Assembly: GCA_024709425.1 (NCBI GenBank)
Contig: JANJWS010000022.1
Location: forward strand, 1-64,000
Length of the DNA stretch: 64,000 bases
Origin: Thiobacillus sp.
GTDB lineage: Bacteria; Pseudomonadota; Gammaproteobacteria; Burkholderiales; Thiobacillaceae
Direction of reading: 5' to 3'
Positions 27,542 through 46,103 of the stretch are shown one piece after another. The notes below the pieces were generated by a model. It was not told where the DNA came from and ran no database searches. It saw only the letters and a list, made by a program, of their open reading frames with translations. The translations under genes and the position numbers were made by a program. Every line of letters begins with the position of its first letter. The stretch's first letter is position 1.

Positions 27542-28603
27542 ATGAAAGAGACAGGCTCATCGGGATGGAAGCATGCGCTCGCGCTGACCTGCATGGGCAT
27601 CGCCTTGGCGGGCCTCGTTGGCTGCGCGGCGGAACCCGTGAAGAAGACCGAGACCGCCGGGCTGGTGTGGCCGATGCCGCCCGAACAGCCGCGTATCCGC
27701 TTTCTCGCGGAGTATCGCAGCGAGGGCGATCTCGGCCCGAAGAACGATCTGCGCGCGACCTTGCTGGGCGAGAAGAAAACCGGCATCGCGCTCGACAAAC
27801 CCTATGGCGTGACGGCCTCGGCCGACGGCAAGCGCATCTACGTCACCGACACCAGGCTGCGCGCAATCATGGTGTTCGATCTCGACAGGCGGGAAGTCCG
27901 TCCGCTGAGGACGGACGCGCACGGTGCTCTCTACAATCCGCTTGAAATTCGCCTCGACCGCCGGGGGCGCCTCTATGTCAGCGATTCAGAGCGCAACGAG
28001 GTGCTGGTGCTGAGTCCGGAAGGCAAGACCCTGCAGGCGCTCGGCAAGCCCGAGAGCATCGGGCGCCCCACGGGGCTGGCCCTGGATGAAACGCGCAACC
28101 GCCTGTACGTGACGGACACGATCAGGCATCGGGTGCTCGTGTACGACATGGATGGCAAATTCCTGTTCGATTTCGGCGAGCGCGGCGCGGATCCGGGGCA
28201 ATTCAATTATCCGGTTAATCTGGCCGTGGATCGAGAAGGCCGGATTCTGGTCACCGATACAGGCAATTTCCGCGTGCAGGTATTTGATCAGGAAGGAAAA
28301 TACCTGAATACATTCGGACGTCTCGGGGATTCCTACGGCAGTTTCAGCCGTCCCAAGGGGGTAGCTGTCGATGCCGATAACAACATCTACGTCATCGATG
28401 CGGCATTCAACAACTTCCAGATCTTCGACCGTGACGGAAAACTCCTGCTGTTCGTGGGCCGCGCGGGGCGGGAACCGGGGACGTTCTGGATTCCGACGGC
28501 GATCTTTATTGACTCCTCGGACAGGGTCTACGTCGTCGATTCGATGAACGCCCGCGTCCAGGTTTTTCAATACATCAAGGATAAAAAGGGTGCTGACGAA
28601 TGA
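27542..28603 (+). CDS. NHL-repeat beta-propeller lipoprotein (NHL-1)
   Basis: Lipobox 'LVGC'; repeated 'GRLYVSD', 'GRILVTDTGNFRVQVF', 'DRVYVVDSMNARVQVF' blades. Confidence 0.9.
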   Translation: MKETGSSGWKHALALTCMGIALAGLVGCAAEPVKKTETAGLVWPMPPEQPRIRFLAEYRSEGDLGPKNDLRATLLGEKKTGIALDKPYGVTASADGKRIYVTDTRLRAIMVFDLDRREVRPLRTDAHGALYNPLEIRLDRRGRLYVSDSERNEVLVLSPEGKTLQALGKPESIGRPTGLALDETRNRLYVTDTIRHRVLVYDMDGKFLFDFGERGADPGQFNYPVNLAVDREGRILVTDTGNFRVQVFDQEGKYLNTFGRLGDSYGSFSRPKGVAVDADNNIYVIDAAFNNFQIFDRDGKLLLFVGRAGREPGTFWIPTAIFIDSSDRVYVVDSMNARVQVFQYIKDKKGADE

Positions 28604-28706
28604 GCAGTATCCGGGGCGATCGGGCGAGCGCATCGAGGGCGTGTGGCGCAATCATGCCGCAACGCTATTTTGATTTTTGCTGGATTTTTTAACGAGGAGA
28701 CTTGAA

Positions 28707-29402
28707 ATGAATGCACAAACAAAACCCAATCCCGGGTTGGCCGGGATACTGGTGGCGCTGTTGGCTGCCTTGTCGAGTGGCGCGATTGCCGCGGGCATCG
28801 CGGACACCAAACACAATCTCTCGGTCACCGGCACCGGCACGATCAAATCGACCGACCAGACCGAGATCTGTGTGTTCTGCCACACGCCACACGATGCGAT
28901 CAAGAATGACAACATTCCGCTGTGGAACCACACCTTGTCGACCACGGCGGCCTACGGTACCTATTCGAGTCCGACGTTCGACGCGACCGATGCCGCGGAA
29001 ATCGGCGGGGTGGATGCCACTACCGCCGCAGTGAGCAACCTCTGCCTGTCCTGCCACGACGGCTCGGTGGCGGTCAACTCGCTCAATAATCCGTCCAACG
29101 CGCGGCCGACGACGACCATGGCGGGTGGCGTGACCAATATCACCGGCTCCGCGAACCTCGGTTCGAGCAGTACCGCCCTGAAGAACGACCATCCCGTCAA
29201 CTTCACCTATGATGCGGCGCTGGCGGCGGCGGACGGCGGCCTCAAGGCGCCCGGGAGCCTGACCGGGGTGAAGCTTTTCAACGACAAGGTGCAGTGCGCG
29301 TCCTGCCATGACCCGCATACCTCCCAGGATCCGACGGGCATGGCTTTTCTGCGCGTGTCGATGTCCGGGAGCACCTTGTGCCTGTCCTGCCACGATAAGT
29401 AA
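28707..29402 (+). CDS. Secreted tetraheme c-type cytochrome
   Basis: Signal peptide; CVFCH, CLSCH, CASCH, CLSCH. Confidence 0.93.
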   Translation: MNAQTKPNPGLAGILVALLAALSSGAIAAGIADTKHNLSVTGTGTIKSTDQTEICVFCHTPHDAIKNDNIPLWNHTLSTTAAYGTYSSPTFDATDAAEIGGVDATTAAVSNLCLSCHDGSVAVNSLNNPSNARPTTTMAGGVTNITGSANLGSSSTALKNDHPVNFTYDAALAAADGGLKAPGSLTGVKLFNDKVQCASCHDPHTSQDPTGMAFLRVSMSGSTLCLSCHDK

Positions 29403-44278: not shown

Positions 44279-45333
44279 CATTCTGGACGCTGCTGGGCTC
44301 GCACCGGCTCGCAGTGGTGCTGATGCTGGCCGTGGCGGTGACGGCGACGCTGGGCGGCACGCTGCCGCAATCAATGCGCTTCAGCCCGGACGAATTGCGC
44401 GACTGGCAGGCGGGCTGGGGCTGGCTCAGAGGCGCGCTCGCCACCCTGCGTTTCTCCGACGTCTACGGCAGCTTCTGGTTCTGGGGCCTGTGCGCCATGC
44501 TCCTGCTCAACCTCGCGGTCGGCATGCTGCAGTTCGTGCTGCGCCGCCCCGCGTGGTCGCGGCCGCACGTCTGGGGCGTGCTGGTGGGGCACGGCGGGTT
44601 GCTGATGCTGGTGGCGGGGGGCATGGCGAGCGCGCTGACGAGCTTTGGCGCCCACCTGGAACTGGCGCAAGGCGAGGTCTGGTACGGCACGCCGGACAAG
44701 TTGAGCCGGGACCGTGGCCGCGCCGAACCGCTTGACGTGGCGCTGCGCCTGGACCGTATTGCGGCAGCGGTTGCGGTGGGCAGCCATTTGCGTGAACTGC
44801 GCCTTGGGCTGACCTGGCAGGTGGGCGGCGGGCTGCCGCAACAGGGCGAGACTGTCGCCAACCGGCCGCTCGACGTGGCGGGCCATCGCGTGCATCCGGA
44901 CAACACCTTCGGTCACGCCGCCGTGTTTGAACGCCAGCTGCCCGACGGGGAGCGGCGCCTGCTGCTGGTGAATTTCCCCCTGTCGCGTGCCGACTGGGGG
45001 AAACCGCGCTGGACCGCGGAACGCAGGCAAAGTCTGGAGACGCGCGGCAAGATTCGCCATTACCGCTTTTATCTCGAAGGCGACCCGGTGCGCCTGAACA
45101 TGGCGGTGACCCACGGCCCGAAGACCCTTTTCGATGGCTGGCTGACGCCGGGTGACAGCGTCGTCGTCGACGGCGAGCAGATGCGCCTGCGGGAGGTGCG
45201 CCCGTGGGCCGGGCTGTACCTGGCGCGAGACCGCGGCGTGGCCTGGGCGTTCGCGGGGATGGCGCTGGCCATCGGCGGCTTCTTCGTCGCCCTGGCCTGG
45301 CCGCGCTCCAGCAGCACGGCAGGTGCGCGATGA
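44269..45333 (+). CDS. System II cytochrome c biogenesis protein ResB/CcsB-like
   Basis: 'LGSHRLAVVLMLAVAVTATLGGTLPQ', 'VYGSFWFWGLCAMLLLNLAVGMLQFV', 'GVLVGHGGLLMLVAGG'. Confidence 0.88.
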   Translation: MQLTFWTLLGSHRLAVVLMLAVAVTATLGGTLPQSMRFSPDELRDWQAGWGWLRGALATLRFSDVYGSFWFWGLCAMLLLNLAVGMLQFVLRRPAWSRPHVWGVLVGHGGLLMLVAGGMASALTSFGAHLELAQGEVWYGTPDKLSRDRGRAEPLDVALRLDRIAAAVAVGSHLRELRLGLTWQVGGGLPQQGETVANRPLDVAGHRVHPDNTFGHAAVFERQLPDGERRLLLVNFPLSRADWGKPRWTAERRQSLETRGKIRHYRFYLEGDPVRLNMAVTHGPKTLFDGWLTPGDSVVVDGEQMRLREVRPWAGLYLARDRGVAWAFAGMALAIGGFFVALAWPRSSSTAGAR

Positions 45334-46103
45334 ACCTGCCGCCGCCGGAGGTGGTGTCGGTGCTGCAGGCCGGTGTGGGCGTGGCCTACCTGATGGCGAC
45401 CGCCGGGTTGGGCCTGGCGCGGCCGTACGCAGTGCGTGTGCTTGTCGTACTGGTGGCGTTTGCCCTGGCCATCCATGTGGGGCTGGTCGGATGGCGCTGG
45501 CAGACCCAGCAGCAGGCGCCCCTGGTAACGCGCTACGAGGACTTTACCTTCGATGCGCTGGTCGTCGCGGCCCTCTATCTGGCGGTGGCCTGGCGGTGGC
45601 CAACGCTGCGGCGGGCCGCAGCGCCGATGCTCGTGGTGGCCGCCGCACTGACGCTTGGCGCGCTGGCCTACAGTCAGGCGTTCTATCCCTGGAGTCCTGC
45701 GCTGCGCATCATCTGGCTGCAGATCCATGCACCGCTCAACAGCCTGTCCATCGCGCTCGCGTCCCTTTGCGCAGCCCTCGCGCTGGCGGGCGGGGTGGTC
45801 CACGCGCCGCTGTGCGCGCGGCTGCTGTGGTGGGTGACACTGGTGTGGAGCGCGATGGTCGCGACCGGCGCCTACTGGGCCTATCTCGCCTGGGGACGGT
45901 TCTGGGGGTGGGATCCGATCGAGAGCTGGGCGCTCGCCACCGCGCTCGCCTACGCCGCGGTGTGCCACCTGATGCTGAATCCGGCCTGGGGCGCGCAGCG
46001 CGTCAGCCGGCTCGCGCTGGTTCCGTACGCCATGCTGCTCTTCACCACCTATGGCCTGTTGCTGGTGAAAAGCAGCATCCACGGACAGTATCTGTTCAAG
46101 TAA
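45330..46103 (+). CDS. System II cytochrome c biogenesis protein CcsA-like
   Basis: WWD-type motif 'YLAWGRFWGWDPIESWALATALAYAAVCHL'; ATGA overlap with ResB. Confidence 0.9.
   Translation: MNLPPPEVVSVLQAGVGVAYLMATAGLGLARPYAVRVLVVLVAFALAIHVGLVGWRWQTQQQAPLVTRYEDFTFDALVVAALYLAVAWRWPTLRRAAAPMLVVAAALTLGALAYSQAFYPWSPALRIIWLQIHAPLNSLSIALASLCAALALAGGVVHAPLCARLLWWVTLVWSAMVATGAYWAYLAWGRFWGWDPIESWALATALAYAAVCHLMLNPAWGAQRVSRLALVPYAMLLFTTYGLLLVKSSIHGQYLFK

Follow-up and report, generated by a model that had tools for sequence, protein, structure and literature searches.

A multiheme cytochrome island with an OmcE homologue and a large outer-membrane barrel at the nar–nos junction of Thiobacillus: a candidate conduit for extracellular electrons

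Genes of the island and their homologues

The DNA analysed here (the window) is a stretch of 64,000 nucleotides from a metagenome-assembled genome (MAG) of the genus Thiobacillus (G000; 2.7 Mb in 109 contigs, 90.5% complete, 6.1% contamination), in which a search for 16S rRNA genes gave no hit. Its subject is an island of multiheme cytochromes, β-propellers and an outer-membrane barrel at positions 27542–46103, where 15 plus-strand open reading frames (ORFs) follow one another in series with intergenic gaps of −17 to +206 nt. An earlier note on this DNA had described fifteen consecutive plus-strand genes, with 57 CXXCH motifs and one CX3CH in six multiheme proteins; all of the ORFs are present and the motif counts were reproduced (4 + 8 + 7 + 3 + 24 + 11 = 57 CXXCH). 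Shuffled versions of the same six proteins give a mean of 0.25 CXXCH, and the whole 64 kb window, read in all six frames, holds 67. All ten matches to PF09699 (doubled CXXCH) in the genome fall inside the island, and Pfam also backs the three NHL propellers, the PQQ/BamB-like propeller, ResB and CcsA. Three points go beyond the earlier note: the OmcE homology, the membership of a minus-strand signal peptidase in the set, and the nature of the block as an insertion. The features are listed below.

27542–28603, plus: NHL-1, six-bladed propeller, predicted lipoprotein with an LVGC lipobox (Pfam NHL, 3e-36)
28707–29402, plus: 4-heme cytochrome, OmcE homologue by sequence, candidate filament (nanowire) subunit (matches to PDB 7TFS and 9YUQ)
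29411–31246, plus: outer-membrane β-barrel of 611 aa, 28 strands predicted (AlphaFold2 model, MtrB match)
31230–32345, plus: PQQ/BamB-like β-propeller (Pfam PQQ_2, 1.6e-53)
32332–33390, plus: 8-heme cytochrome with 8 CXXCH and 44 aa per heme, which may partner the barrel from within or in the periplasm
33465–34601, plus: 7+1-heme cytochrome (7 CXXCH and a CX3CH) with a C-terminal transmembrane helix
34667–35584, plus: membrane cytochrome b of the b561/formate dehydrogenase gamma type, candidate quinone module
35663–35779, plus: 38-aa peptide with a single transmembrane segment, constant in length and sequence pattern in ten loci
35802–36893, plus: 3-heme cytochrome with two N-terminal transmembrane helices
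36895–37818, plus: NHL-2 propeller (Pfam NHL, 1.7e-29)
37815–40886, plus: 24-heme cytochrome, 42.6 aa per heme, with a Sec-type signal and no other transmembrane segment
41096–42217, plus: NHL-3 propeller (Pfam NHL, 1e-38)
42284–44278, plus: 11-heme cytochrome, an OmcE domain (residues 1–221) continued at the C-terminus by a 7-heme part, which may cap a filament or form its base
44269–45333, plus: ResB-like cytochrome c maturation protein (Pfam ResB, 1e-21)
45330–46103, plus: CcsA-like cytochrome c assembly protein (Pfam Cytochrom_C_asm, 1.4e-11)
46237–47127, minus: signal peptidase I-like (S26) protein, member of the island set (TIGR02227, 1.5e-32)
27177–53782: the whole inserted block, that is, the island, the S26 gene, two genes of unknown family, a GGDEF protein and a CcmI-like gene, with its right edge at the end of nosL

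The 4-heme protein matches the filament cytochrome OmcE of Geobacter sulfurreducens (GSU0618, PDB 7TFS) over its full length (residues 24–241, E = 1.8e-33), and the 16-chain entry 9YUQ with E = 2e-31. Both proteins carry four hemes and are of similar size, with whole-chain identity of ∼34–38% and the same pattern of CXXCH and distal-type histidines. The eight histidine columns, four from CXXCH motifs and four of distal type (in the contexts TKH, TPH, DHP and CHxxH), are invariant across an alignment of 21 sequences that includes 7TFS. In the OmcE filament, each subunit lends one of its eight axial histidines to the subunit beside it. On sequence grounds, then, the 4-heme protein is an OmcE homologue. 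The island differs from the OmcE system in that the 4-heme gene adjoins a barrel and an inner-membrane module of its own, and in the addition of an 11-heme protein consisting of an OmcE domain and a 7-heme tail.

In the 11-heme protein, residues 12–221 match 7TFS with E = 1.1e-33. This OmcE domain is 52% identical to the 4-heme protein, and the two are closer to each other than either is to OmcE itself. The AlphaFold2 model (pTM 0.82, from a 60-sequence alignment) has OmcE as its sole match in the PDB (7TFS, TM-score 0.60 by target); the 7-heme tail has no match there. Confidence in the monomer model is lowest at residues 20–68 of the OmcE domain, which hold the first histidine and the first heme; this would fit completion of the domain by a neighbouring subunit, and is not proof of it. 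A search with the 11-heme protein matched over 6000 others, some of them labelled Thermodesulfobacteriota, Poribacteria and Calditrichaeota, so the architecture is widespread.

Searches of Pfam and NCBIfam with the 611-aa barrel protein gave no hit. Its AlphaFold2 model, built from a 29-sequence alignment, has 28 strands (mean pLDDT 87, pTM 0.67), and the best match in the PDB is MtrB (6R2Q_B, E = 5e-9, TM-score 0.44). An outer-membrane barrel encoded beside multiheme cytochromes is one of the features expected of a porin–cytochrome conduit, and this arrangement is found here, both in the 28-strand model and in the gene order of the 21 loci described below. The propeller genes have recurring positions: NHL-1 adjoins the gene of the 4-heme protein at almost every locus, the PQQ propeller gene follows that of the barrel in most of them, NHL-2 pairs with the 24-heme gene in full-length islands, and NHL-3 lies upstream of the 11-heme gene, short islands included.

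The barrel is the fastest-changing protein of the island (24–75% identity across loci). Far better conserved are the cytochrome b (65–94%) and the 7+1-heme protein (64–88%), both values being for full-length islands only, and the 24-heme protein (51–86% outside locus L028), which has 24 CXXCH in all complete, unbroken copies. The CX3CH of the 7+1-heme protein (CESECH) is kept in 11 of the 11 copies checked. The cytochrome b matches NCBIfam formate-DH-gamm (1.6e-8) and a b561-type Pfam family, in each case under the cut-off; among its 1266 homologues, numerous in metagenomes, the top hits carry PF01292 and the named ones are proteobacterial. The 38-aa peptide proposed in the earlier note is real, since ten loci spread over several genera all encode it at that exact length. 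The PDB held no significant relative of the 7-, 8- or 24-heme proteins, of the cytochrome b or of a 563-aa protein encoded nearby. Of the 10 island genomes from other genera, 9 have the 8-heme gene, though in some it does not adjoin the barrel gene, and its product is a candidate for the barrel's in-barrel or periplasmic partner. A periplasm-spanning role is plausible for the 24-heme protein.

Conservation across genera and insertion into the nar–nos junction

When named genomes were searched once with the alignment of the barrel, 21 loci emerged. The synteny comparison that the earlier note had proposed reveals an order shared across genera: NHL1, 4-heme, barrel, PQQ, 8-heme, 7-heme, cytochrome b, 3-heme, NHL2 and 24-heme, followed by NHL3 and 11-heme where the locus extends far enough. 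Thiobacillus has this order, as do Thiohalomonas denitrificans, Sedimenticola and vent Gammaproteobacteria. Sulfurimicrobium and one Nitrosomonadales MAG keep the stretch from NHL1 through 8-heme, with divergent 3-heme, cytochrome b and 7-heme sets alongside, and four vent MAGs have a short form (NHL1, 4-heme, barrel and NHL3, with or without an 11/12-heme gene). In Ca. Polarisedimenticolaceae (L028), NHL1, 4-heme, barrel and PQQ lie a few kb from a separate set of PQQ, 8-heme, NHL2 and 24-heme. The gene set thus recurs in distantly related bacteria, Thiohalomonas denitrificans, Noviherbaspirillum denitrificans, Sulfurimicrobium and Sedimenticola being among the hosts with names, and several of the hosts oxidise sulfur or denitrify. 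Among 399 genomes drawn from the whole phylum, and leaving aside the window itself, no match to the 7-heme protein exceeded 31% identity, so within the species sampled the cassette is rare; the same protein had no match in the plasmid database PLSDB. One locus (L029:16354–21623) carries 3-heme and 24-heme genes with one stop each, which may reflect sequencing error or decay.

Within Thiobacillus, a barrel search of 100 relatives found the barrel in 4 of the 57 genomes of the genus, and a search of these 57 with the 4-heme protein returned the same four, together with two whose OmcE-domain proteins are all more distant. The corresponding site is empty in four Thiobacillus genomes that lack the island (G055, G029, G033 and G002): there, narK2 and a monoheme cytochrome gene are followed directly by nosL to nosZ. 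Alignment by blastn to G055 places window positions 27176 and 53783 at L055:14924 and L055:14798, respectively, ∼125 bp apart. The island is therefore an insertion into a pre-existing nar–nos cluster. The left edge of the block falls after the terminator (27146–27169) of the monoheme cytochrome gene; that gene (26660–27109), encoding a monoheme cytochrome c lipoprotein, is part of the native junction and lies outside the island. No direct or inverted repeats of ≥9 nt flank the insertion edges. A sigma-70 promoter scan gave no signal exceeding chance, the terminator being the sole notable element, and no Rfam families or tRNAs were found at the locus.

The signal peptidase gene belongs to the island set. 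All 4 Thiobacillus genomes with the island have it and all 53 without the island lack it, an association with a probability of 1 in 395,010 by random choice if phylogeny is ignored. Outside the genus it occurs in 7 of 10 island genomes, in several on the island contig. An assignment of this gene as unlinked to the island in G005 was withdrawn; it lies near a contig end there. In Thiobacillus, the genes for the 563-aa protein, a 255-aa protein and the GGDEF protein travel with it, as does the CcmI-like gene where the contig extends. The ResB/CcsA pair is only 33–44% identical to the same-position pair in other Thiobacillus islands, with ResB at 33–36%, against 65–94% for neighbouring island genes, which indicates that the pair has been exchanged or is fast-diverging.

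A proposed conduit and its alternatives

Taken together, these observations lead us to regard the island, as rather likely, as a self-contained quinone-to-surface conduit that ends in an OmcE-type filament and probably serves electron uptake. The cytochrome b, the 7+1-heme protein, the small membrane peptide and the 3-heme protein would form a quinone module in the inner membrane, and the 8-heme cytochrome, the 24-heme cytochrome or both would carry electrons across the periplasm. At the outer membrane, the barrel, of MtrB size, would hold a cytochrome, for which the 8-heme protein is the candidate. Outside the cell the 4-heme protein would polymerise into a filament; the helical rise reported for the OmcE filament is 34 Å (PMC12954529). 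The 11-heme protein could dock 4-heme subunits through its OmcE domain, with its 7-heme part blocking the C-terminus; because the chain continues there into seven hemes, the protein should sit at one end of the filament, as a base adaptor or tip, so that a role in capping or basing the filament is plausible. Maturation and export would be helped by the propellers, by ResB/CcsA and by the signal peptidase. The quinone-to-surface route put forward in the earlier note stands as regards its components, since the cytochrome b, the membrane-anchored and secreted multiheme cytochromes and the outer-membrane barrel form one co-inherited unit by gene order and barrel model, as such a conduit would require.

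The likely use would be the uptake of electrons from Fe(II) or sulfide minerals, partner cells or cathodes to feed denitrification. The host genome encodes RuBisCO, a cd1 nitrite reductase (nirS), nar (narG) and nos (nosZ), and for this reason we favour uptake. The earlier note had also argued for coupling to denitrification from the flanking nar and nos genes. The location holds for the window, and the argument from it is weakened by the empty site in four relatives and by G005, the fourth island-bearing genome, where the island is on the same contig as narK and ∼90 kb away. Because the block was inserted at a native junction, its position is weak evidence for such coupling.

Several points weigh against this picture of an electron-importing filament conduit. 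Homology to OmcE is no proof that the protein polymerises. Observation of OmcE filaments is confined to a mutant strain, deletion of omcE leaves Fe(III) oxide reduction by G. sulfurreducens unimpaired, and cytochrome filaments as physiological conduits are disputed even for Geobacter (PMC11077965). The TM-score of the barrel to MtrB is just 0.44, with many barrels scoring nearly as well, the proximity to nar and nos is a product of the insertion, and the cellular location of the island proteins is a prediction. Nor can the direction of electron flow be read from the genes. The same conduit might instead run in reverse: in the absence of nitrate and oxygen, the quinone pool would discharge its electrons through it onto minerals, electrodes or partner cells, as in Geobacter. 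OmcE, OmcS and CbcBA all come from organisms that reduce metals, and it has been argued that a complex of this kind can run in either direction (PMC10553843); we nevertheless think export unlikely, in view of the host, an autotrophic denitrifier in need of electron donors, and of the other hosts named above. The dispute over OmcE filaments in wild-type cells (PMC11077965) would also suit a conduit with no nanowire, in which the 4-heme and 11-heme proteins are monomeric surface or secreted cytochromes. Conservation of all eight heme-position histidines argues against this, and a closely paralogous OmcE domain on the 11-heme protein makes sense if the two co-assemble, so that such an arrangement seems quite improbable.

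That the island is a conduit of an already described type (PCC3, MtoAB/PioAB or Oet, from Fe(II) oxidisers and syntrophic sulfate reducers) is very unlikely. PCC3 (He et al. 2017, PMC5566968) likewise joins a porin to very large multiheme cytochromes with few amino acids per heme and a b-type inner-membrane protein, and the earlier note had suggested kinship with it. The inner-membrane protein of PCC3 is defined by two WX3HX13H motifs and one SGXXG (PMC5566968). The cytochrome b of the window and four orthologues have no WX3HX13H, one HX13H and no SGXXG, so that kinship is not borne out and membership of PCC3 was ruled out. The island protein belongs to another family, there are six multiheme cytochromes instead of two, and OmcE-type proteins and propellers are added. 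With PCC3 medians of 34 hemes for the extracellular and 21 for the periplasmic cytochrome (PMC5566968), the 24-heme protein fits the periplasmic one; the island has no comparable extracellular giant. MtrCAB (6R2Q) also has a large plug-less barrel, of the kind expected to sheath a cytochrome. It differs from the island in that the island barrel model has 28 strands and no MtrA/MtoA-family decaheme scores over the cut-off in the whole MAG, which is 90.5% complete (best TIGR03508 score 26 bits against 192).

Nearest in concept would seem to be CbcBA and the Oet clusters. CbcBA of G. sulfurreducens, as its role is described (PMC10553843), is a quinone module of a multiheme cytochrome c and a cytochrome b, to which the island adds the CX3CH, the 38-aa peptide and the 3-heme membrane protein. 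OetABI/OmcKL, from the sulfate-reducing partners of anaerobic methanotrophic archaea and from Geobacter, is described as joining a porin–cytochrome conduit to a putative cytochrome filament and large multiheme cytochromes (PMC10553843), and one described operon of syntrophic sulfate reducers has 26- and 16-heme cytochromes and a β-propeller. The Oet filament is of the OmcS/OmcX type, in contrast to the OmcE type of the island, none of the fifteen genes encodes a peptidyl-prolyl isomerase, and the island host is an autotrophic denitrifier. A search confined to a collection of open-access papers found no description of the cassette.

In Geobacter, how filaments connect to conduits is an open question, and the relevant genes are scattered and redundant. 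A bolder version of the conduit reading, which we put forward only tentatively and consider doubtful, is that sulfur-oxidising denitrifiers share a nanowire operon that moves horizontally and crosses phyla, its bifunctional fusion cytochrome (OmcE domain and seven hemes) coupling an OmcE filament to the barrel. In that case the fusion protein would supply the adaptor still missing between nanowires and porin conduits, and the nanowire would serve electron intake rather than release. In a genome otherwise poor in cytochromes, one conserved cassette unites the filament-type subunit, candidate adaptor, barrel, inner-membrane module, maturation genes and signal peptidase; since all parts lie together, the entire route could be tested at once by deletion or heterologous expression. 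For denitrification driven by minerals, cathodes or partner cells in Thiobacillus and its relatives, the cassette is likewise a specific candidate.

Neighbouring genes and related clusters

Beyond the signal peptidase gene, positions 47495–50040 (minus strand) encode the 563-aa protein and the 255-aa protein, the latter with a lipobox-like sequence; both are predicted to be exported, neither has a family match, and each of the four Thiobacillus genomes with the island has both next to it. At 50164–53747 (plus strand), still inside the inserted block, are a Cache-HAMP-GAF-GGDEF protein, possibly for cyclic di-GMP control, and the CcmI-like gene. The latter is of System I, although ResB/CcsA of the island are System II-type. 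Between two nosL genes, at 54389–55020 (minus strand), a TumE-like toxin gene (22.9 bits against a Pfam cut-off of 23.4) and an 89-aa gene resemble a toxin–antitoxin pair.

OmcE-like genes also occur in other settings. After the island in G005, an additional OmcE-like gene with five CXXCH lies on the minus strand (L060:17886–18602). A different type of cluster is found in Thiobacillus genomes without the island barrel (L064 and L065, from G017 and G040), where an NHL propeller gene accompanies one for an 11-heme OmcE-domain protein (33–36% identical); L064 additionally has a 768-aa ORF and 3-heme genes.

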